Shown here: piece by piece, positions 259 to 30,982 of the stretch | How positions within the stretch are numbered: the first letter of the stretch is position 1 | How the letters are laid out: every line of letters begins with the position of its first letter | From: Clostridia bacterium | GTDB lineage: Bacteria; Bacillota; Clostridia; Oscillospirales; Acutalibacteraceae | DNA: 35,404 bases | Direction of reading: 5' to 3' | Assembly: GCA_017531385.1 (NCBI GenBank) | Contig: JAFXLD010000083.1 | Coordinates: 1-35,404 of the forward strand | Made by a program: the position numbers and the translations under genes | Notes under the pieces: model-generated | Databases searched by the model: none | What the model was told of the DNA's origin: nothing | What the model saw: only the letters and a program-made list of their open reading frames with translations

Positions 259-1488
259 ATGAAAAAAATCATTTCAGTTTTAATGTCAACCGTTCTTTTT
301 TTGACAACAATTATTATTTTATCCGCAGGAAATATTGCAGGAGCCATACCGGCACCCGAAATTTATCTGACGGCACCGAATCAGTATTATATTGCAGGAG
401 AGGAAATCACATTTGACATGAAAATCCCCGTCGACGTGATTAAAGATGTTGTTTATGTACAATTATTCATCGACTGCAATACGGATGTGCTGAAATTCAG
501 AACTGCTGATCAATCAAAAGGAGAACTTGCAGTTACAGAAACAGAAAAAGGCTACACAATAGACTTTTATCCCTGGAGTATGGCAACAAATACGGAAACA
601 TACAGAGCCACACTCACATTCCGTGTTTCAAAGGGCGACATTGATGTAAATGCACATGCTTTGCTGCAATACAGAGACTCAGACACAACAAGAGAAGCAA
701 GACTTGCCGATTCTTTACCCAACAACACTGTTTTTGATGCCGACGAAGTACCCCGTCTTACAATTACGGGCGACCTTGAAATTTACAGAAAAGAGGATAC
801 AATATACTTACCTTATCCTATTACAAAGTCTGAGCTCAGAAGCAAAATCAGCAGCACTCACAAAGAATATCCCGTTGAATACAAAGTTCTGAACCACAAA
901 GAAACCGAGTACGCACTGACAGGCGATGAACTGTTCGTCAATTTTGACGGCAGACAGGGAGAAATCGTGAGAATATCTATCCTCGGCGATGCCGACAACA
1001 ACGGTATCGTCACTGCAGCTGATGCAAGAAAAGTTTTAAGGTATTCAGCACAACTCGAGCCATTTCCCGAATTCTTCGACAGCGGCTGTGACCTTGACAA
1101 TGTAAAAGGTGCTTCTGCGGGGGATGCCAGAAAAATTCTCCGTGTTGCGGCAAAAATCGACTCTTTTGATATCCCCGACTTCACAATAATAGAAGGCCGT
1201 TATCTCACAGTTGCAAAACTTCTGAATGCAGGAAGCGGTTTGTATAACTGGAGATGCACAGTGTCTGACGAAAATGCTTTTGAAATCACCGAAGAAATCA
1301 CACCGCCTGCACCCGAAGATTTAAAACCGGGCACACCCTTTGAGCAGTCATTCACATTCAAAGGTCTGAAACCCGGCACATACGATGTTCACTTTGAACT
1401 CATCGCAAACCATGAGGATGAACCCATTGATGAATTTTACTTTACTGTTACCGTACATATCGATGTTCCGATCGGTAATATGTTCTGA
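259..1488 (+). CDS. Secreted dockerin protein with C-terminal chagasin-like domain
   Basis: This 409-residue protein has an N-terminal signal peptide (about 1-29, ending AGAIPA). Residues 35-165 form a beta-rich domain whose pattern weakly recalls cohesin/Ig-like sandwiches. Residues 175-242 resemble the small module often found just before dockerins. Residues 243-301 are a type I dockerin with two Ca-loop/helix repeats (TAADARKVL and SAGDARKIL); the second loop has Val in place of the usual Asp/Asn at position 5. Residues 305-405 resemble the chagasin (I42) fold: a YNWRC strand, then GTPFEQSFTFKGLKPGTYDV and a final FTV strand. The RPW inhibitory loop of chagasins is replaced by ANHE, so this copy may be inactive or have changed specificity. 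It precedes a paralogue by 38 nt and the two are probably co-transcribed. Signal peptide and dockerin are firm; the inhibitor role is inference. Confidence 0.75.
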   Translation: MKKIISVLMSTVLFLTTIIILSAGNIAGAIPAPEIYLTAPNQYYIAGEEITFDMKIPVDVIKDVVYVQLFIDCNTDVLKFRTADQSKGELAVTETEKGYTIDFYPWSMATNTETYRATLTFRVSKGDIDVNAHALLQYRDSDTTREARLADSLPNNTVFDADEVPRLTITGDLEIYRKEDTIYLPYPITKSELRSKISSTHKEYPVEYKVLNHKETEYALTGDELFVNFDGRQGEIVRISILGDADNNGIVTAADARKVLRYSAQLEPFPEFFDSGCDLDNVKGASAGDARKILRVAAKIDSFDIPDFTIIEGRYLTVAKLLNAGSGLYNWRCTVSDENAFEITEEITPPAPEDLKPGTPFEQSFTFKGLKPGTYDVHFELIANHEDEPIDEFYFTVTVHIDVPIGNMF

Positions 1489-1526
1489 TTTTAACGAAAT
1501 TGCAATTTTTGTGTAAGGATGAAAAC

Positions 1527-2792
1527 ATGAAAAAAATTATTTCAATTATTTTAAGCCTCATTATTATTTCAGGATTCAGTGTGGCTGTCAGTGCCGAAAA
1601 AGCTTCCTATCCCGAAATGAATGTATCTGCTCACGGTTATCAGGACGGAGTGTACCAAGACGGACTGTACTATATTTACGGTGAAGAAATAATAATCGAG
1701 CCGAAAGTATATGATATCGGACTTGACGAGATATATAAAGGGGTTGTTGTCTACCTTGATTGCAACAAGGAAGTATTTGAGTATGTTGGCACACCTCTCG
1801 GAACAATCGAAAATATGGTGAGATATTCCGAGACAGAAACGGGATATATGGCAGAAATCATCTGGACAAATCCGTCCGCAATTCCTCTATATGCAACATT
1901 TACGATGAAAGTTGCGGACAAAGATAATCCCAATGTCAGTGTAAGGGCTTTTAAAGTTACTCAGGACAACAAGTTAGAGGAAATGAATATCACCTTTGAT
2001 CTGCCTGAAAATAAGGTGTATGAAAAAGAAGAAATTCCTCATATTCAATCTACTCTTACACCTCCTGTTTTTGCAAGCACAAAACAAGCATGGTTCAATA
2101 CGGATTTAAACAACGAACTTTATATTTTTGAACCCATAACAGTAGCGGATATTTTCAGCATGCTTTCCGTTTCGGCTGACGGCGGAGAAATAAAATATAT
2201 TCCGAAAAACGGCAAAGAGGAACAATATCCCCGCACGGATGATATTTTTGCTCTTGAATTTGCAGGTAAAATCTGTGAGGTACTGTATATACGTGTTGTA
2301 GGTGACGCAACCGACGACGGAAAAGTCACTGCGGCTGATGCAAGACTTGTTCTAAGGCAAAGTGCAAAGCTGGGCACGGAATCAATCACCTGCGATGTGA
2401 CAAATGACGGAAAAACAACTGCCGCTGATGCAAGAATGATTCTGCGTGTTGCGGCAAAGCTTGATTATTTCAAGCTTAAGAGCATTACCGTCTGGCAAAA
2501 TCAACCATGTAAGATCGGACCGCTTGTAAGTGCATCTGATGGCGGTTATATGTGGAGATGCACCGTGTCAGAGGAAGGTGCGATTGAAGTGACCGAAACA
2601 ATTGAACCCTCCGTTGACAACACGGGTAAACCTCCTCTTGAAATAATAATGGGTGCTCCCGCACTTCAGACATTCATTCTGAAACCTCTGAAACAGGGTA
2701 AATTTGAAGTAAAATTCGAGCTTATCCGTCCGTGGGAAACAGAGCCCATAAAGGAATTCGGCTTCACAATCGTGGCTGATGATATACTTTGA
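1527..2792 (+). CDS. Secreted dockerin protein with chagasin-like cysteine-protease-inhibitor domain
   Basis: This 421-residue paralogue of the preceding gene starts at ATG 1527, with AAGGA 8 nt upstream and a signal peptide (MKKIIS...VSAEK). An in-frame upstream GTG-type extension lacks a ribosome binding site. Domain order is the same: N-terminal beta domain (about 30-180), pre-dockerin module (about 195-258), type I dockerin (259-313; TAADARLVL and TAADARMIL), then a C-terminal domain (about 318-421). That last domain fits the I42 chagasin pattern: GGYMW at 339-343 where chagasins have their NPTTGY/F-W loop, GAPALQTF before a central strand, and a preserved RPWE at 401-404, the family's third inhibitory loop. 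Chagasins block papain-family cysteine proteases, and a dockerin-linked inhibitor (cyspin) is known from Clostridium cellulovorans. The fold call is by eye and not from a profile search. Confidence 0.75.
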   Translation: MKKIISIILSLIIISGFSVAVSAEKASYPEMNVSAHGYQDGVYQDGLYYIYGEEIIIEPKVYDIGLDEIYKGVVVYLDCNKEVFEYVGTPLGTIENMVRYSETETGYMAEIIWTNPSAIPLYATFTMKVADKDNPNVSVRAFKVTQDNKLEEMNITFDLPENKVYEKEEIPHIQSTLTPPVFASTKQAWFNTDLNNELYIFEPITVADIFSMLSVSADGGEIKYIPKNGKEEQYPRTDDIFALEFAGKICEVLYIRVVGDATDDGKVTAADARLVLRQSAKLGTESITCDVTNDGKTTAADARMILRVAAKLDYFKLKSITVWQNQPCKIGPLVSASDGGYMWRCTVSEEGAIEVTETIEPSVDNTGKPPLEIIMGAPALQTFILKPLKQGKFEVKFELIRPWETEPIKEFGFTIVADDIL

Positions 2793-2853
2793 CCAATTTT
2801 TTTATATGATAATCCGCTTGTTTATGCGACATTCTAAAATTAACCCGCTACTA

Positions 2854-2883
2854 TTGACAAATTTATTTTATTGGTTTTATAAT
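2854..2883 (+). promoter_or_regulatory. SigmaA promoter of glnN
   Basis: A consensus -35 TTGACA (2854-2859) and -10 TATAAT (2878-2883) are separated by 18 bp. They lie 54 bp ahead of the glnN start, so glnN is transcribed separately from the dockerin pair. Confidence 0.8.
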
Positions 2884-2936
2884 AAAAGGCGTTGATGATA
2901 AATCAGCACCTTTTATTTTTTAAAGGAGAAATCCGT

Positions 2937-5033
2937 ATGGCTGTTAAAAATGTACCCGAAATGTTCGGTTCTCTCGTATTCAATGACGAAGTAATGAGAG
3001 AAACTCTCCCCAAGGAGATTTACAAATCTCTTCACAAGACTGTTGAAGAAGGCAAAGAACTTGATATCACTCTTGCAAACGCAGTTGCTCACGCTATGAA
3101 AGACTGGGCAATCAGCAAGGGCGCAACACATTATACTCATTGGTTCCAGCCTATGACGGGTATCACTGCCGAAAAGCACGACAGTTTCATCAGTCCTGCT
3201 CCCGGCGGAAAAGTCATTATGGAGTTCTCAGGTAAAGAGCTGATCAAGGGTGAACCCGATGCATCAAGCTTCCCTTCAGGTGGTATCCGTGCTACATTTG
3301 AAGCAAGAGGCTACACAGCATGGGACCCCACTTCATACGCATTCATAAAAGAAAATTCACTCTGCATCCCCACAGCTTTCTGCTCATATACAGGCGAAGT
3401 TCTCGACAAGAAAACTCCCCTGCTCCGTTCAATGGAAGAGCTGAGCAAACAGGCTGTCCGTGTTCTCAATCTTATCGGTGTTGATACAAAGAGAGTTATC
3501 TCCACAGTCGGTGCAGAGCAGGAATATTTCCTCATTGACAGAAAAATTTATGAGCAGAGAAAAGATATAGTTATCACGGGCAGAACACTTTTCGGTGCAA
3601 AACCTCCCAAGGGACAAGAAATGGACGACCATTACTTCGGCGCAATCAAGCCCAGAGTTATGGCATACATGGAAGACCTGAATGAAGAGCTCTGGAAATT
3701 GGGTATCCTTGCAAAAACAGAGCATAACGAAGCAGCTCCCGCACAGCACGAGCTGGCTCCCGTTTTCTCAACTACAAATATCGCAACCGACCATAACCAG
3801 CTGACAATGGAAATCATGAAAAAGGTAGCAAAGAAGCACGGTCTTGTGTGTCTTCTTCACGAAAAGCCCTTTGCAGGTGTCAACGGAAGCGGTAAGCACA
3901 ACAACTGGTCAATTTCAACAGACAGCGGTAAGAATCTTCTTGATCCCGGCAAAAATCCTCAGTCAAACAAAACTTTCCTGCTCATTCTTGCAGCAGTTGT
4001 AAAGGCTGTTGACGATTATCAGGACCTTATGAGAATTTCCGTTGCAAGTGCAGGCAATGACCACCGTCTCGGTGCTCACGAAGCTCCTCCCGCAATTGTT
4101 TCCGTATTCCTCGGCGATGACCTTACAAAAATCATTCAGGCTCTTATCAACAAGGAAGACGATGTTGAAGGTCCTCAGAAAGTGGCAATGAAGACAGGTG
4201 TTGATGTTCTTCCCGACTTCACAAAGGACACAACCGACAGAAACAGAACATCTCCATTTGCTTTCACAGGTAACAAGTTTGAGTTCCGTATGCTCGGCTC
4301 AAACTATTCAATAGCAGACCCCAACATTATAATGAACACAATCGTTGCGGAGTCTTTCTCTCAGTTTGCCGATTATCTTGAAAATGCGGAAGATATTGAC
4401 AAGGCAGTCAGCCACATCATCCGTCGTGAGTTCAGAAACCACGCAAGAATTATTTTCAACGGCAACGGCTATGATGATGCATGGGTAAAGGAAGCAGAAA
4501 AGAGAGGTCTTCTCAATCTCAAGACAACGGCAGATGCAATCCCTCATTACACAGCTCAGAAGAATATTGACCTTTTTGAAAAGCATCATATTTTTACTCC
4601 CCTTGAAGTTCATTCAAGACAGGAAATTCTTGCAGAGCTTTACACAAAGACAATCAATATCGAAGCTCTCACAATGCTCGAAATGGCAAAGAAACAGCTT
4701 CTTCCCGCCGCAATTTCATTCACAGGCTCACTTGCACAGACTCTTGCAGCAAAGAAAGCAATCGGTATGAATGTTGAGAATGATGCCGCATATCTTCTTG
4801 CGGACAAACTCACAAAACTTACAAATGCAATGTATGAGAAGATTGATTCTCTCGACAAAGCAGTTGCAGGTGCAAAAGATGTGTCAGAGGGTCAGGAGCT
4901 TGCTTTCTATACAAAGGATAACATCCTTTCCGCAATGAACGACCTGAGAGCAGTTGCAGACGAAATCGAAGTCGATATGTCAGAGGAATATATCCCCTAT
5001 CCCACATACAGCGATTTGCTCTACAGTGTTTAA
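2937..5033 (+). CDS. glnN: Type III glutamine synthetase
   Basis: GSIII makes glutamine from glutamate, ammonium and ATP in the cytoplasm; the long dodecameric type is common in Bacteroidetes, cyanobacteria and ruminal Clostridia. The 698-residue length fits the family (about 700), well above GSI (about 450). The N-terminus ([16 protein letters not shown]), the segment [11 protein letters not shown] and the [13 protein letters not shown] segment are typical of GSIII. I chose ATG 2937 because AAAGGAG lies just upstream; the 15-codon extension from 2892 overlaps the promoter region and has no ribosome binding site. It is monocistronic, with its own promoter and a strong terminator. Codon use is biased as in highly expressed genes. 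No GlnR box or riboswitch is apparent in the short leader. Confidence 0.95.
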
Positions 5034-5047
5034 TTAAATTTTGATAA

Positions 5048-5088
5048 AAATTATACAGCCATTGCAACCGGCAATGGCTGTATAATTT
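5048..5088. terminator. Bidirectional terminator between glnN and the XRE gene
   Basis: An 18-bp perfect stem (5048-5065 with 5071-5088, loop AACCG) is flanked by A-runs on the left and T-runs on the right, so it can terminate both glnN and the converging small regulator gene. Confidence 0.9.
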
Positions 5089-5093
5089 TTTAT

Positions 5094-5318
5094 TTATCTA
5101 AAATCAAAAAGTTCTTTTTCCGTAATTTCAAGCTTTTCACAAATTTTAAAAACTAAGTCCATTGAAACTCCGTTTGCACCAATTTCTATACCACTCATAT
5201 GACTTCTGTCAATACTCAGAACTTCGGCAAGTTCCATTTGTGTAAAACCTCTGTCTTTTCTGTAATATGCAATATTCTGACCAAGTTTTCTGTATTTATC
5301 TGAATATTCAAAATTCAT
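5094..5318 (-). CDS. Small XRE-family DNA-binding protein
   Basis: This 74-residue protein is almost entirely a Cro/C1-type helix-turn-helix: LGQNIAYYRKDRGFTQMELAEVLSIDRSHMSGIE is the canonical five-helix pattern, with FTQMELA and the recognition helix SIDRSHMSGIE. AAGGAGGAATAGTA precedes the ATG on the minus strand. It lies between glnN and the subtilase and converges on the glnN terminator. Its target is unknown; the long untranslated region between it and the subtilase gene is a candidate. It lacks any sensory or catalytic domain. Confidence 0.85.
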   Translation of the reverse strand: MNFEYSDKYRKLGQNIAYYRKDRGFTQMELAEVLSIDRSHMSGIEIGANGVSMDLVFKICEKLEITEKELFDFR

Positions 5319-5776
5319 TACTATTCCTCCTTAAAACAATCACAATATTATTGTATGCATTGTTTTATAAGTCATAAACCTCATATCAATAGATATTTAA
5401 CTATTGACATTAGTCACAGAAAGGTATAAAATTAAATTAGAGATAATTATATTTATAAAGGAAACAACTTTAAAAATTTTGATTGATTATTTAGATTTAT
5501 TTCGCATGTATTTAAATAAGTTGTTTTTTCAAAAAATGTGTTACACTTTTGTGCTTATTGTATTTATATTTATAAGAAGGTGAGTCCAATGGTTTAATAT
5601 CTGCTGTAAAACTGTTTATTTAACATTAATCTTATATTTAGAAAATCAATAGTGATTCATTGTTCCAATGAATACCATATCGTCTACTGATTGACAGTAA
5701 AAAGATATAATATGTCAATGTAATCATCTATGAAAACAATGAATAATTGAGCAATAAGCAAAGGAGTAAGAAAGGT
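5319..5776. other. AT-rich non-coding region ahead of the subtilase
   Basis: About 460 bp without a credible gene. It contains a TTGACA (5404-5409) with TAAAAT 17 bp downstream (5427-5432); a long-range inverted repeat AAACAACTT/AAGTTGTTT (5462-5470, 5518-5526) followed by T's; an 8-bp hairpin with a 3-nt loop (5655-5673); and a TATAAT (5706-5711) bracketed by the inverted words ATTGACA and TGTCAAT (5690-5696, 5713-5719). The last may be the proximal promoter and operator of the protease gene. The region is markedly richer in A+T than the neighbouring glnN. Confidence 0.5.
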
Positions 5777-7300
5777 ATGAAAAAAATTATTTCTGTTTTA
5801 TTAAGTATTATTATTATTTTCTCTTTTTCTATTTTTGGTAAAAGTGAGGAATTAACGGATGTTGAATTTGATAATTCATCTGTAATAGTAACAATGAAAC
5901 ATGAATATTCTATTATTGATAAAGTTTACACATTAGAAGATTTTAACTGTGACAAAATTGCTTATATTGAAGATTTGACACCAATAAGTAGTGAATCAAT
6001 CGAGACATCAAAGTATGATCTTGATGCATGGAAAAAAATATTGCAACTTTATCTTATTGATGCCTCGAATGTTAATGTAGAAGCTGTAATAAGCGAATTA
6101 TCAACAAATGAAAAAATTGAAACTGTTGAAAAAAACTATGTTTTTTCAATGAATCAAAAGGATGAAATTGAATCTTTACAGTTGAATACAAACAATCAGG
6201 CATCGGTAGCATCAACCAGGAGTTCAGTGGCAGCTTTTATAAGCACTAATGATGTAAAATTTTCTGAACAATACGCATTGGGAAATACTTCCGCAATAAA
6301 GGCTTGGGGAATAACTACCGGTAGCTCCAATGTAAAAGTTGGCATTATTGATACTGGAATAAATGCACATTCAGATTTTTCCGGCAACTTATCCACCACG
6401 TTAAGTAGAAATTTTACAAATGAAGATAGCTTATTGGATACAGGAAATCACGGAACAAAGGTTGCCGGAATAATTGGAGCTAAAGCTAATAATAATTTTG
6501 GCATAGCAGGTGTCTGTTGGAATGTAACATTGGTAAATTTAAAAGCATATGAAGATGATGCATTTACTCTTTCTGGTGGTAGAACTAAAGCAGCATGGAT
6601 AGCAGAAGCAATTAACTATGCGGCATCTATTGGTATTGATGTATTAAATATGAGTGGACGTGCTACTGACTTATTAGGTAGATTTAGTATGCTTAATGCT
6701 ATTGACAATTATGACGGAATCATTGTAATTTCAAGCGGAGATGACGGTATCTCGAACATTCCATATCCAGCATGCTATGATTCAAACAAAATAATCTGTG
6801 TCGCATCAATAGATTTTTTTAACAACTTAGTTGAGGACTCTAATTATAGTTACACAGATGTGGATTTGGGTGCCCCCGGCAAAGATATTTGTACTATTAG
6901 TGAAACAAATATCACTTCTATTGTAAACGGATCATCATATGCCGCTCCATATGTAACGGGGGCAATAGCTCTCCTTCTTAGTGTAAATCCGAATTTAACA
7001 ACTTCACAAATAAGGAGTTTGATTACAGAAAATGTTGATGTTAATTCTTCCTTATTGGGAATGGTTAGAACTGGAGGATATTTAAATATTTTCAATGCAA
7101 TTCTTGATGCTTCAGGCTATATTCTTGGAGATACCAACGCAGATGGAACTATAACTGCTGCTGATGCGAGATTGGCATTAAGGTTTTCATCACAACTTGA
7201 AACTCCTTCAAATCTTCAAAGAGTATTATGTGATATGAATAATGATTTCTATATTACAGCCGCTGATTCCCGAACGATTCTTCAGATGGCTGCATCATAA
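5777..7300 (+). CDS. Secreted subtilisin-like (S8) protease with C-terminal dockerin
   Basis: This 507-residue serine protease has a signal peptide (1-about 26), an S8 propeptide-like domain (about 30-135: VIVTMKHEY...VEAVISEL), the catalytic domain (about 165-440) and a type I dockerin (451-507). Catalytic residues are Asp192 in IIDTG, His225 in NHGTKVAG and Ser387 in GSSYAAP. The oxyanion-hole Asn of most subtilases (AAGNDG) reads SSGDDG here, with Asp322 in that place, as in proprotein convertase PC2, so activity may be altered. I chose ATG 5777, with AAGGAG at 5761-5766, over a TTG 30 nt upstream because the signal peptide then begins MKKIIS as in its dockerin neighbours. The next gene follows after 15 bp and carries a propeptide-like domain. 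Codon use is more AT-rich than that of the flanking housekeeping genes. Confidence 0.9.
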   Translation: MKKIISVLLSIIIIFSFSIFGKSEELTDVEFDNSSVIVTMKHEYSIIDKVYTLEDFNCDKIAYIEDLTPISSESIETSKYDLDAWKKILQLYLIDASNVNVEAVISELSTNEKIETVEKNYVFSMNQKDEIESLQLNTNNQASVASTRSSVAAFISTNDVKFSEQYALGNTSAIKAWGITTGSSNVKVGIIDTGINAHSDFSGNLSTTLSRNFTNEDSLLDTGNHGTKVAGIIGAKANNNFGIAGVCWNVTLVNLKAYEDDAFTLSGGRTKAAWIAEAINYAASIGIDVLNMSGRATDLLGRFSMLNAIDNYDGIIVISSGDDGISNIPYPACYDSNKIICVASIDFFNNLVEDSNYSYTDVDLGAPGKDICTISETNITSIVNGSSYAAPYVTGAIALLLSVNPNLTTSQIRSLITENVDVNSSLLGMVRTGGYLNIFNAILDASGYILGDTNADGTITAADARLALRFSSQLETPSNLQRVLCDMNNDFYITAADSRTILQMAAS

Positions 7301-7315
7301 AAAGGAGGAAAAATC

Positions 7316-8074
7316 ATGAAAAAATCATTATCTTTAATTCTTTCATTTTTTATTATCTTATCTTTGTGTATTACATCTTCCGCATATTATTTCTTTGATG
7401 ATGCAAAAAATGACTTTATCTGCACAGACAAAGCTCTGTATCTGACAGCTGAAAAAAAGGCGGGAGAAATCGATTATTTCGGAGAAAGATTTACAATTAC
7501 CGATAAAGACGGCAATAAGCTTTCTGCCGAGGATTATATATCCTCTGGTTGTACATTAAACTATTTTGAGAAATTCGATATATTTAAAATCATTCTTGTA
7601 GGAGATATTAACTGTGATGGTCACATTACTGCTGCTGATGCACGTATTGCTCTGAGAATGTCTGCAAGACTTTATTCGCCTGGTGAAGATCCTGACAAAT
7701 ACGGAGCATTTGATGCAAATTATTCCGGTACGATTGAAGCAGCTGATGCAAGAGAGATTTTGCGTGCGGCTGCACAAATCAGTGAATACAATTTATTTAA
7801 AGAAAAAATAGCTGATAAGATATATTCGGAAGAAAGCATTGTTCCTTCAAATCGTAACCACTACAGTGTTGGCGTTATTCTTCATCCCGATTTTCTTGGC
7901 AATCCGGATTGTCTGAATGCGGATTTTTTCGGCAAACATGTTAAAAATGTTGAATCAATATCAGAAATGGAGCTTGAGCTTATACTTACTGAACCTACTT
8001 ACGATAACGCAATTAAGCTGTATCAGGAGTTAAAAAACAATGATGCCGTAATACTCAGCACAATATGTTTTTAA
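7316..8074 (+). CDS. Secreted dockerin protein with S8-propeptide-like C-terminal domain
   Basis: This 252-residue protein is preceded by AAAGGAGG and begins with a signal peptide (1-about 23). Residues 40-95 match the small pre-dockerin module (FTITDKDGNKL, then an SSGC turn and a KIILVGD strand). Residues 96-156 are a type I dockerin (TAADARIAL and EAADAREIL). Residues 182-252 align by eye with the propeptide region of the adjacent subtilase: SVGVILHPDF against SVIVTMKHEY, then an F-rich turn, LELIL against LQLYL, and a final ELKNND helix. There is no catalytic domain, so it may act as a stand-alone propeptide-type inhibitor or folding helper for the neighbouring protease on the same scaffold. 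It could alternatively be a decayed protease remnant, but the frame is open and the domains look well formed. The inhibitory role is inference. Confidence 0.75.
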   Translation: MKKSLSLILSFFIILSLCITSSAYYFFDDAKNDFICTDKALYLTAEKKAGEIDYFGERFTITDKDGNKLSAEDYISSGCTLNYFEKFDIFKIILVGDINCDGHITAADARIALRMSARLYSPGEDPDKYGAFDANYSGTIEAADAREILRAAAQISEYNLFKEKIADKIYSEESIVPSNRNHYSVGVILHPDFLGNPDCLNADFFGKHVKNVESISEMELELILTEPTYDNAIKLYQELKNNDAVILSTICF

Positions 8075-8148
8075 AGATTCAATATAGCTAAAAATAATTG
8101 AAAAAATGTGGTTTTAATTCTGCATTTGACTGTTAAAAACTAAAACCT

Positions 8149-8187
8149 AACGGCATTTTCTTCACAGAAAGTGCCGTTGATTTTTTT
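8149..8187 (+). terminator. Terminator after the subtilase operon
   Basis: The stem AACGGCA (8149-8155) pairs with TGCCGTT (8172-8178), extended inward by TTTTC/GAAAG, and is followed by seven T's (8181-8187). A second short hairpin ACGGCT-atatac-AGCCGT follows at 8193-8210. Confidence 0.85.
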
Positions 8188-27679: not shown

Positions 27680-30600
27680 TTAAAGAGTTTCCAACTGCGC
27701 ACTGACACGAAGAATTTTTCTCGCATCAGAAGCATTGATTTTACCGTCTTTGTTTATATCTGCCGCTAAAAGATAGTCACCTTCGAGATTTTCAAGCTGT
27801 GCACTTACCCGAAGAACTATACGGGCATCAGCAGCATTCACTTTATTGTCACCGTTTACATCACCGAGGGTATATTCAGGGACATCAGGTTTCGGATTTT
27901 CCTCAGGTAAAGCAGGAATCACCCGTTCATCAACCTTTTCATCACAAACAGAACACTTCTGAATTTCAAGACCGTCAACTCCAACGTTTGCCGGAGTTAC
28001 AACTTCCCATTCACCGGGAGTATGACCTGTTGCATTTATATAATCCGCAATATATGTATTTCCACATTCTGTACAGGTGTATGTTGTGTAACCCTGTTCT
28101 GTACAAGAAGGTGTTGTTACAACAGCAACATGGTCATGTTCCGTTTCAGGTATTATTGTCTGCGCAACAATGATTTCGTTACATACAGAACATTTTATGC
28201 CTTGTGTAAAACCAGGCGACGTGCATGTAGGAGATATTGCTTTGATTATTTTTTCTGTATGTCCGTTCTTTTCACATTCTGTTATACTTCCTTCTTCTTC
28301 CCAGACAGCATAAAGAGTTATTTCTTCGGGAAGAGGTACACCCACGATAATATACAGAAATGATGGGTAAATGCCATTACCGATTGTCAACAATTCGTCA
28401 TACTCACGTGCTGACCATCTGACAAATTTATATCCTTGACGAACAGGCGTCTGAATATCGGATAAACTTAACTTTCCTTCAAAAGGAACCGTAACACTTT
28501 CCCATCCAAGTTCCACTCCATTGCCGTCAAAATGAACAGTTATTGGTGTTTTCTGTTTCTCGGCTTTCCATACAGCATAAAGAACTATTGTTTCATCATC
28601 GGTTGATGTAAGATTTCTTACATTCTGAATATTTGTATATGTTGCATTTGTTGCATTTTTATCTGTTGACCAACCGAGGAACGAATATCCCGTTCTGCTG
28701 AATTGATTTATATTAAGAGTTCTCCAGACATCGTAAGTATGAACCGAATCATCCATAGTTCCCGTTCCGCCGTTGGCATCATATTTTATTGTATATGTAT
28801 TCTGTTTCCAGACTGCGTATACAGAAGTATCCGCCAAAATTATAATTCCGTCTCCCGGGTTGAATTGAACATTCGTTGCCGACTCCAGAGCATCCCAACC
28901 AAGGAATGTATATCCGGTTTTTTCCGGAATTTGTGTACTTATCCATCCATAACCGTTAATCTGCTGTTTATCGGGAATTTTTTCTCCTCCGTTTGATTCA
29001 TAAGTTAATGTATAAGTATTTGTTCCCCATACGGCATATAAGGTAACAGTTGCATCTTTCGATGTTGTAAGATTTTTTACAGACTGTTTATCCGTATATG
29101 TGGCAGTAGTGGCTGTTTTGTTTATTGACCAACCAAGGAATGTATAACCTGTTCTGCTGAACTGATTTACACTCAGATTCTTTGAAGCATCGTATGTATG
29201 AGATGAACTGTTCATACTTCCGCTTCCACCATTTGCATCATATTTAACGGTATATGTATTTGGTTTCCAAACTGCATAGAGTGTTACTGTTGCTCCGTTT
29301 GTTGAAGTGAGGTTTTGGACAGATTGTTTGTCTGTGTAAGTTGCAGTTGTTGCATTTTTGTCTGCAGACCAGCCAAGAAATGTATATCCGACACGTGTAA
29401 ACTGGTTTGAATTAAGATTTTTGGCAACATCATAAGTATAGGCTGAATTGCTCATACTTCCGTTACCACCGTTGGTATGATATTTTATTGTATATGTGTT
29501 CGGTTTCCAGACAGCATACAAATTAACAACTGCTCCATATGAAGATGCAAGATTTTTGACAGACTGTTTGTCAGTATATGTTGCAGTTATTGCGTTTTTA
29601 TTTGTCGACCAACCGAGGAATGTATATCCGGCACGTGTAAACTGGTTTGCATTAAGATTTTTTGCAACGTCATAAGTATGTGCTGATTTGCCAATTTCAC
29701 CTTTTCCACCATTGGGATCATATCCTACACTATAGGAGTTCGCTTTCCATACTGCATAAAGCGTTACAGTAGTTCCATTAGTTGATGTAAGATTTTTAAC
29801 AGATTGCTTATCTGTATATGTAGCAGTTATTGCAGTTTTATTTGTTGACCAACCGAGGAATGTATATCCTGTTCTGCTGAATTGATTTGCATTCAGATTT
29901 TTTGACACATCGTAAGTATGATATGAATTACTCATACTTCCACTGCCGCCATTTGCATCGTATTTTACTGTATACGTTTTCGCTTTTACTTCAACTTTAA
30001 CAGTAGCTGAAGCCAGATGTTTCACATTGGAGGATGTCTTTAAATCTGAATAAATATTTATAGTAAAGTTGGTTGAACCTGCTTTTAACCCTGTTATTTT
30101 CAGTTCACCTTTATTCATTGTATAGCTGACGACAGAACTATCGTAATCATAATATACCTTCCCTGTATCAGGATAAACTCCAGAAATAGAGGCAAGCATA
30201 GTTGCTGTTTCTCCGATATTCAATGTAACAGAAGATTTAGAAATAGATAAATCTACATCCCAACATTGCGGACAACTTTTATCTTTATAATTTTCTCCAG
30301 TCCAATAAAAACCTCCGCAAGAATCAAAATCAACACATCTTTGAGATATTTCATGCGGATGTTCAGGCTGATAAAGTCTGGCACCGGAATAATCATGTGT
30401 ATGGTCATCAGATGGGCCAGGAACAATGGGAGATGTCACTTTCCAGTATGCTGTGACATTATTTATCCTAACTTTATATGCCGATGTTAGTGGTATTCTT
30501 CCTGATGCAATACTTCCTAGTGGATCTGCACAATAATATGTTCCATTTGTATAATCTGTAAGCAAAACAGCATGTGGAACTGATTCATTGTATATAACTA

Positions 30601-30982
30601 TTCCTTCCGGACATTTTTTTAATTCTGCCTGAATAAGTGCATCATTCGCAGATCCCCCTGGCAATGTATAGTGTCCAACAGAAATTTTACTAACCGACGA
30701 ATTTGAATAAGAGAATGACCATCGAAGCCCCGCACCATTAATCCATGCAGTAGATTTCACAGCAGATTCCGTTATGGTATTCCACTTTGAATCTCCTCTT
30801 AGCATAGAATACCTACGCATCATCATTGTTGTTGCACACAAAGTACATGTTGTAGCACCTTCTTGTTTTAAAAAAACATTATTTGCATTTAACTGATTAA
30901 ATGTAACCGCATTTGACATTATTGGCATTGAACTTACAAGCATTACAATAACCAAAAATACAGAAATAAACCTTTTTTTCAT
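27680..30982 (-). CDS. Large secreted dockerin protein with papain/C39-like head and InlB-type repeats
   Basis: This 1100-residue protein has a signal peptide (1-25); a papain/C39-like peptidase domain (about 28-190) with Gln40, Cys46, His137 and Asp153 in papain-like order (Q-x5-C spacing as in papain); a Cys-containing linker; an Ig-like domain (about 243-330); seven InlB B-type (Listeria-Bacteroides) repeats (about 335-897), five near-identical at about 78-80 residues and two divergent (the fifth and seventh); a CxxC-bearing beta region (about 900-1030); and a type I dockerin (about 1035-1100; NAADARIVL and NASDARKIL). The InlB-type repeats usually act as spacers or adhesive stalks. Protease activity is inferred from the motif. 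It is divergent from an XRE gene and ends at a shared terminator. The stretch is AT-rich and the near-identical repeats may recombine. Confidence 0.85.
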   Translation of the reverse strand: MKKRFISVFLVIVMLVSSMPIMSNAVTFNQLNANNVFLKQEGATTCTLCATTMMMRRYSMLRGDSKWNTITESAVKSTAWINGAGLRWSFSYSNSSVSKISVGHYTLPGGSANDALIQAELKKCPEGIVIYNESVPHAVLLTDYTNGTYYCADPLGSIASGRIPLTSAYKVRINNVTAYWKVTSPIVPGPSDDHTHDYSGARLYQPEHPHEISQRCVDFDSCGGFYWTGENYKDKSCPQCWDVDLSISKSSVTLNIGETATMLASISGVYPDTGKVYYDYDSSVVSYTMNKGELKITGLKAGSTNFTINIYSDLKTSSNVKHLASATVKVEVKAKTYTVKYDANGGSGSMSNSYHTYDVSKNLNANQFSRTGYTFLGWSTNKTAITATYTDKQSVKNLTSTNGTTVTLYAVWKANSYSVGYDPNGGKGEIGKSAHTYDVAKNLNANQFTRAGYTFLGWSTNKNAITATYTDKQSVKNLASSYGAVVNLYAVWKPNTYTIKYHTNGGNGSMSNSAYTYDVAKNLNSNQFTRVGYTFLGWSADKNATTATYTDKQSVQNLTSTNGATVTLYAVWKPNTYTVKYDANGGSGSMNSSSHTYDASKNLSVNQFSRTGYTFLGWSINKTATTATYTDKQSVKNLTTSKDATVTLYAVWGTNTYTLTYESNGGEKIPDKQQINGYGWISTQIPEKTGYTFLGWDALESATNVQFNPGDGIIILADTSVYAVWKQNTYTIKYDANGGTGTMDDSVHTYDVWRTLNINQFSRTGYSFLGWSTDKNATNATYTNIQNVRNLTSTDDETIVLYAVWKAEKQKTPITVHFDGNGVELGWESVTVPFEGKLSLSDIQTPVRQGYKFVRWSAREYDELLTIGNGIYPSFLYIIVGVPLPEEITLYAVWEEEGSITECEKNGHTEKIIKAISPTCTSPGFTQGIKCSVCNEIIVAQTIIPETEHDHVAVVTTPSCTEQGYTTYTCTECGNTYIADYINATGHTPGEWEVVTPANVGVDGLEIQKCSVCDEKVDERVIPALPEENPKPDVPEYTLGDVNGDNKVNAADARIVLRVSAQLENLEGDYLLAADINKDGKINASDARKILRVSAQLETL
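28293..29982 (-). repeat. Seven tandem InlB-type repeats within the dockerin gene
   Basis: Seven copies are seen, each with a core such as YDANGGSGSM, then GYTFLGWS and ending LYAVW. Five are close in sequence; the two divergent copies are the fifth (YESNGG) and the seventh (HFDGNG). The DNA repeats are about 240 bp each. Confidence 0.9.

Follow-up and report, generated by a model that had tools for sequence, protein, structure and literature searches.

Dockerin-bearing proteases and putative protease inhibitors encoded in a genome of the Acutalibacteraceae

The window considered here, the whole 35,404-nucleotide stretch of contig JAFXLD010000083.1 (positions 1 to 35,404, forward strand; assembly GCA_017531385.1, a Clostridia bacterium of the family Acutalibacteraceae), encodes proteins in which dockerin modules are joined to a protease domain or to domains resembling protease inhibitors. 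The genome, designated G000 (2.47 Mb, 107 contigs), is 83% complete. Within the first 8 kb of the window a dockerin subtilase is followed by a dockerin protein with a C-terminal domain resembling a subtilase propeptide, and two other dockerin proteins carry a chagasin (I42) domain. Chagasin blocks papain-type proteases (PMC2607524), and subtilase propeptides help to fold, then inhibit, their own enzyme (PMC6993865). The arrangement suggests that this gut bacterium pairs surface-docked proteases with surface-docked off-switches, some of them resembling part of the enzyme, and so controls surface proteolysis locally.

Subtilase, propeptide-like partner and chagasin proteins of the window

An earlier annotation made from the letters alone (the sequence-only reading) had grouped five dockerin proteins of the window into one suite of proteases and inhibitors. 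Its dockerin subtilase is confirmed: Pfam matches the S8 domain with E 4.2e-36, the dockerin exceeds its cut-off and the predicted structure, compared with the PDB, shows a good S8 fold. The enzyme carries an Asp (SGDDG) at the position of the oxyanion-hole Asn, which is Asn in all ten relatives of alignment A4 (AGN, one SGN).

The gene of the propeptide-like protein starts 15 bp past the subtilase stop and is preceded by a AAAGGAGG site. No Pfam family, I9 included, matches its C-terminal domain. The propeptide-like character proposed earlier is supported by profile comparisons, in which the family of four met subtilase propeptides at 95.6% (pairwise E 4.7e-9) and a nine-member inhibitor profile met a profile of seven propeptides at 98.7% (E 2.7e-16), and by the predicted structure, where a beta-alpha-beta-beta-alpha-beta order occupies model residues 548-616 (predicted local distance difference test, pLDDT, 70-91 for the block). 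Comparison of the fused model with the PDB returned subtilisin-type entries only, the inhibitor part lying outside its coverage, and the inhibitor profile, searched against PDB sequences, matched unrelated entries only (best E 0.42).

A profile of 12 subtilase propeptides alone, searched against 2337 open reading frames (ORFs) at E below 1e-3, recovers subtilase ORFs, eight dockerin proteins and one M56/BlaR1 protein, the last present in two overlapping loci. In a survey of 29 loci the subtilase has its own detected propeptide at 15, and at four of these a second, separate I9-type gene adjoins it: the window, L187 and L194, where this gene encodes a dockerin protein, and L186, where it encodes the BlaR1 protein. 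The profile of this survey was built from members of those same pairs, and the propeptide-only profile is therefore the cleaner test. As regards gene order, the recurrence of the pair in two other genera (L187, L194) is in keeping with the earlier claim that the serine protease is matched by an inhibitor domain. Orthologues of the window partner occur in G002, G008 and G009 (44, 35 and 34% identity, respectively). Among the 11 genomes of the genus, nine have an S8 protein, each of these genomes having one of a membrane-anchored type (by eye), and a profile search detected no I9-type partner at these nine loci. A scan of the named genomes with the window subtilase gave no match.

The BlaR1-type M56 membrane protein of L186 (4974-6860, minus strand; M56 by Pfam) ends in a domain closely resembling the propeptide of the adjoining subtilase (E 1.2e-32 with the propeptide profile) and may sense or restrain that enzyme. 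Elsewhere in the window genome six dockerin-type genes are clustered (L050:2763-8260, minus strand), two of them combining an I9-type domain with another conserved domain, which is found again next to subtilase L051 and papain L128. At L051 a dockerin gene (3887-4657) lies 13 bp behind a secreted subtilase; taken by eye for I9-type, its product was rejected on profile comparisons of 0.4 and 0.6%, with the L051 subtilase itself at E 2.1, and the pair is uncounted. Candidates picked by eye at L248 and L233 were also rejected, with no match below 1e-3.

Both chagasin proteins of the sequence-only reading are upheld. Against a Pfam cut-off of 27.2 bits, I42 scores 34.4 bits (E 2.7e-8) in chagasin protein 1 and 39.1 bits (E 9.7e-10) in chagasin protein 2. 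The predicted structure of protein 2, for which the ATG at 1527 was taken as start, joins a cohesin-like, a dockerin and a chagasin part in a single chain and shows both the immunoglobulin-like fold of chagasin and the cohesin fold. Profile comparison of the family places an N-terminal cohesin-like domain in protein 1 too, a domain absent from the earlier account. The Pfam cohesin family PF00963 matches neither N-terminal domain, and we therefore name them cohesin-like only. The loops described for chagasin, L2 NPTTG, L4 GXGG and L6 RPW/F (PMC2607524), are partly kept: in proteins 1 and 2, respectively, L2 reads SDGGY and GSGLY and L4 GAPA and GTPF, and at the place of L6 the alignment has ANH and RPWE. 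The two proteins are predicted inhibitors of papain-type proteases. Pfam dockerins exceed the cut-off in chagasin protein 2, the subtilase and the protein at 27680-30982. That of the I9-type protein scored 21.9 bits against a cut-off of 22.9 in the window search and 24.6 bits, over the cut-off, in the whole-genome search. The dockerin of chagasin protein 1, missed by Pfam, was detected with a local profile that was built from 43 dockerins of collected loci and also used for the dockerin assignment of the 80 papain loci described below.

The five-protein suite stands in part, as a set of dockerin-borne proteases and putative inhibitors that is wider than first noted, but its 8 kb splits into two units (Table 1): the chagasin locus beside a glutamine synthetase III gene, which lies between the two gene pairs and is absent from the earlier account, and a 3.1-kb block with a helix-turn-helix (HTH) regulator, the subtilase and its putative inhibitor. 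A single operon for all five dockerin proteins was ruled out because the glutamine synthetase and divergent regulator genes intervene and the sister genome G004 lacks the block. The contig starts at base 1 of the window, and the upstream side of the chagasin genes is unseen.

Table 1. Features of the window and the evidence for them
Feature	Position	Strand	Description
Chagasin protein 1	259..1488	+	Secreted; cohesin-like N-domain, dockerin about 982-1170, C-terminal chagasin/I42 1240-1449
Chagasin protein 2	1500..2792	+	Secreted; cohesin-like about 1608-2024, dockerin 2301-2441, chagasin/I42 2535-2771
Glutamine synthetase type III	2892..5033	+	Pfam GSIII_N E 6.1e-83; outside the protease/inhibitor set
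Small HTH_3 (XRE-type) regulator	5094..5318	-	ORF and Pfam HTH_3 E 8.3e-8; divergent from the subtilase gene
Dockerin subtilase	5747..7300	+	Propeptide about 5852-6154, S8 6326-7036, dockerin 7124-7270
I9-type dockerin protein	7316..8074	+	C-terminal subtilase-propeptide-like domain about 7865-8071; ORF, profiles, model
Variable block	5034..8180		158 bp in its place in sister genome G004 (L131); blastn of both flanks
Dockerin protein with seven List_Bact (Flg_new) repeats	27680..30982	-	Pfam; head weakly C39-like

Papain and chagasin pairs in related genomes

The claim that cysteine proteases are likewise matched by inhibitor domains fails for the window, whose chagasin genes adjoin no papain gene, but finds a counterpart elsewhere in G000. 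On another contig, C12, this genome has its sole Pfam C1 match (E up to 0.001), a papain joined to a dockerin. Its gene is directly preceded on that strand by a gene whose stop codon lies 17 bp before the papain ATG and which encodes a dockerin protein. The chagasin domain of this protein is divergent, missed by Pfam I42 and detected by a local I42 profile (E 1.2e-5). The plan is clearer elsewhere in the family, where dockerin-papain and dockerin-chagasin genes are neighbours and the papain pro-segment recurs as a copy in some of the putative inhibitors.

Dockerin-papains were found in 14 genomes, and in eight of them (G000, G001, G005, G008, G009, G398, G208 and G117) an I42 gene adjoins the papain gene (E below 1e-4). 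Among the best 80 papain loci of the named genomes, an I42 neighbour lies within 1.5 kb at 7 of 11 dockerin-papain loci and at 1 of 69 loci without dockerin (Fisher p 7.9e-7, with rows that are not independent). Nine of these 11 loci also belong to the 14 genomes and all are related; consequently, the p value should not be read literally. One dockerin-papain locus, L245, has a neighbour at E 0.0056 and was scored as a miss. At the sole dockerin-less locus of this set with an I42 neighbour, L264 (2-370 and 395-4789), an ORF truncated by the contig start encodes a chagasin that by eye resembles a lipoprotein, and some 25 bp further on begins a papain ORF of 1464 residues or more. In G010, a genome without a Pfam C1 match, a short C-terminal papain piece stands beside a dockerin-I42 gene (L137:1130-1393 and 1572-2156, minus strand).

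The papains have a short pro-segment in common. Its core resembles TGLIWDDWE and is followed some 35 residues later by an FPxPG motif, which lies ahead of the active-site Cys. A profile of this segment from 11 papains (leaving out those of G009, whose frame is broken, G171, G117, G156 and G007) was searched against 1795 ORFs and gave 10 non-papain matches below E 0.5. All are I42 proteins; the strongest two reach E 1.4e-6 and 1.9e-5 and the weakest 0.47. Most of the 41 I42 ORFs in the search set, both window chagasin proteins included, have no such copy. Where present, it stands at the C-terminus in some proteins and ahead of the dockerin in others. When same-locus pairs were compared with 500 shuffles, the alignment beat nearly all of them in five of eight hand-chosen pairs, those of G001, G005, G008, G208 and G171 (reached by 2, 0, 0, 0 and 0 shuffles, respectively). 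G008 and G208 have two I42 neighbours each, of which one was tested (in G008 the more distant one, which carries the copy), and G009 was left out. The dockerin protein of G171, which lies between two papain genes, has two copies (by eye) and no detected I42 domain.

These observations allow a tentative suggestion, which we consider less likely than not: the family may use two-headed docking inhibitors, combining chagasin and a copy of the target papain's pro-segment on a dockerin protein (in the window type, chagasin on a chain whose own cohesin-like domain could hold the docked protease), each surface protease being silenced by a matched partner from the adjacent gene. That the copy would change with its papain is suggested by the pairs of G208 and G171, in which papain and partner deviate alike from the common core (by eye).

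Possible docking and control of surface proteolysis

Searched as a whole, G000 has 65 dockerin matches with E no higher than 1, of which 60 exceed the Pfam cut-off, and five cohesin matches at E up to 0.001, four over the cut-off, each alone on its own contig. Two of the cohesin proteins have an LPXTG-like C-terminal anchor and two a membrane helix (by eye). On balance, the domains and their distribution indicate that the window is probably part of a cohesin-dockerin cell-surface system carrying proteases together with dedicated inhibitors that bear the same kind of docking tag. The inhibitor logic would be placed on docking modules, so that enzyme and brake are both held at the cell surface. 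The I9-type protein would bind the subtilase as a trans-acting propeptide, keeping it inactive until the partner is digested or displaced, and shared docking would keep the two near each other. The chagasin proteins would dock on a surface anchor and block papain-type proteases coming near. They may hold a dockerin protein through their cohesin-like domain, which may offer an alternative docking route; by the same means such a chain could hold a docked protease directly. In Clostridium cellulovorans proteases and protease inhibitors accumulate together (PMC6547498), which speaks for the pairing. Cellulosome-type systems are viewed as machinery for the breakdown of sugars, and for many of their dockerin proteins no role is known. 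Should matched docked inhibitors accompany the docked proteases, proteolysis would be among the regulated activities of these surfaces, and such pairs would lend themselves readily to tests of inhibitor-protease matching.

Several observations weigh against this interpretation. Adjacency and homology do not establish inhibition. As regards the docking on one scaffold that was proposed earlier, no scaffold with several cohesins, and no cohesin repeat on any contig, was seen in the 83% of the genome that is represented. On the side of the subtilase, the propeptide-only profile finds the three orthologues of the window partner but misses the window copy itself, whose last strand and tail are about six residues shorter than theirs and end in Phe, versus Trp, Tyr and Met. 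The three orthologues have no subtilase neighbour as far as seen, and in G002 a dockerin protein beside a subtilase relic has no detected I9 domain. On the side of the papains, the window-type chagasin genes of G000, G002, G003 and G004 adjoin glutamine synthetase and no protease. The other six of the 14 dockerin-papain genomes, namely G007, G070, G171, G310 (E 0.008) and the two named genomes L247 and L248, have no I42 neighbour, and the papain partners of G000, G398 and G117 show no pro-segment copy above shuffles. Within the genus, I42 occurs in 11 of 11 genomes, free-standing chagasins without dockerin included, and a C1 papain in six, leaving five with I42 and no C1 match. Finally, some proteins in the local I42 profile come from loci that are also among the 80 tested (L242-L244), and a Pfam-only count is therefore given as well: over 50 of the 80 loci, an I42 neighbour was found at 4 of 11 dockerin-papain loci and 1 of 39 others.

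Part of this evidence would fit inhibitors that shield both the cell and its docked enzymes from foreign proteases of plant, host or neighbour, their closeness to protease genes being incidental or due to shared regulation. The wider occurrence of I42 than of C1 papains in the genus and the protease-free surroundings, as far as seen, of the I9 orthologues and the window chagasin genes agree with such a role, as does the proposal that cyspin protects from plant protease (PMC4305082), itself a further point against dedicated pairing. We nevertheless regard protection as unlikely to be the explanation: the adjacency of I42 to dockerin-papains and the pro-segment copy in I42 proteins point to a specific partner. 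It seems improbable that the I9-type protein serves chiefly to help the subtilase fold and not to inhibit it. Subtilase propeptides do assist folding (PMC6993865), and a tail as short as that of the window copy could make for weaker inhibition; however, the subtilase carries its own propeptide, and solitary orthologues of the partner stand without a subtilase alongside. An antagonism pair, in which a docked papain harms related neighbours and orphan I42 proteins confer immunity, would account for the I42 protein of G006, a genome 86% complete, which keeps a papain pro-segment copy where no C1 papain was found. Yet incomplete genomes could conceal a papain in such orphan carriers, and no delivery route was seen, no search for one having been made; we consider antagonism highly improbable.

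Known systems and other dockerin proteins

Dockerin-borne inhibitors and docked proteases are already known (PMC12484212, PMC3573020, PMC2930009). Cyspin (Clocel_0147) of C. cellulovorans and Dpi of C. cellulolyticum are likewise cellulosomal protease inhibitors, Dpi being dockerin-containing and cyspin inhibiting cysteine proteases. Compared by description, not by sequence, they differ in that the accessible text names no partner protease gene alongside, pro-segment copy or cohesin module. PinA and other cellulosomal serpins also inhibit subtilisin-like proteases (PMC12484212), through a serpin and not a propeptide-like domain, and the S8 protease of C. thermocellum with its tandem double dockerin is likewise a docked subtilase, for which the accessible part of the same source mentions no paired inhibitor. 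Outside cellulosomes, a close counterpart of the I9-type protein is Plasmodium SUB1-ProM, a free-standing inhibitor resembling a subtilase propeptide and encoded beside subtilases (PMC6993865), but eukaryotic and, in the accessible text, with no docking module named. Some bacterial papain-fold proteases have a small inhibitor encoded next to them (PMC3462683): SpeB/Spi, staphopain/staphostatin and Bacteroides C10/Bti share with the present pairs the joining of a small inhibitor gene to such a protease gene. Theirs are co-transcribed and belong to protease families C10 and C47 with other inhibitor types, no dockerins being named in that text. The I29 propeptide-like inhibitors (CTLA-2alpha, crammer, BCPI) also inhibit cysteine proteases, whereas here a pro-segment of about 25 residues is carried by a protein that also has chagasin and dockerin domains.

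A literature search found no paper joining 'chagasin' with 'dockerin', weak evidence of absence given that most subscription journals lay outside its coverage; among the papers that a further search listed, none joined 'dockerin' with I42, 'subtilisin propeptide' or 'inhibitor I9'. Nor did the papers listed yield an account of matched dockerin pairs from adjacent genes, a dockerin trans-propeptide, a pro-segment copy or a cohesin-like/dockerin/chagasin chain.

The fifth dockerin protein of the sequence-only reading (27680-30982, minus strand) keeps its dockerin, accompanied by seven List_Bact repeats, but not a firm assignment of its papain/C39-like head. The head alone gave best Pfam E values of 0.17 and 0.75, below the cut-off; a longer piece had no match, and no PDB sequence matched up to E 1. 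The head may be a C39-like protease. A different dockerin type occurs at L053 (6408-8054, minus strand), on an NlpC/P60-type protein encoded beside a cohesin protein with an LPXTG-like anchor (by eye).

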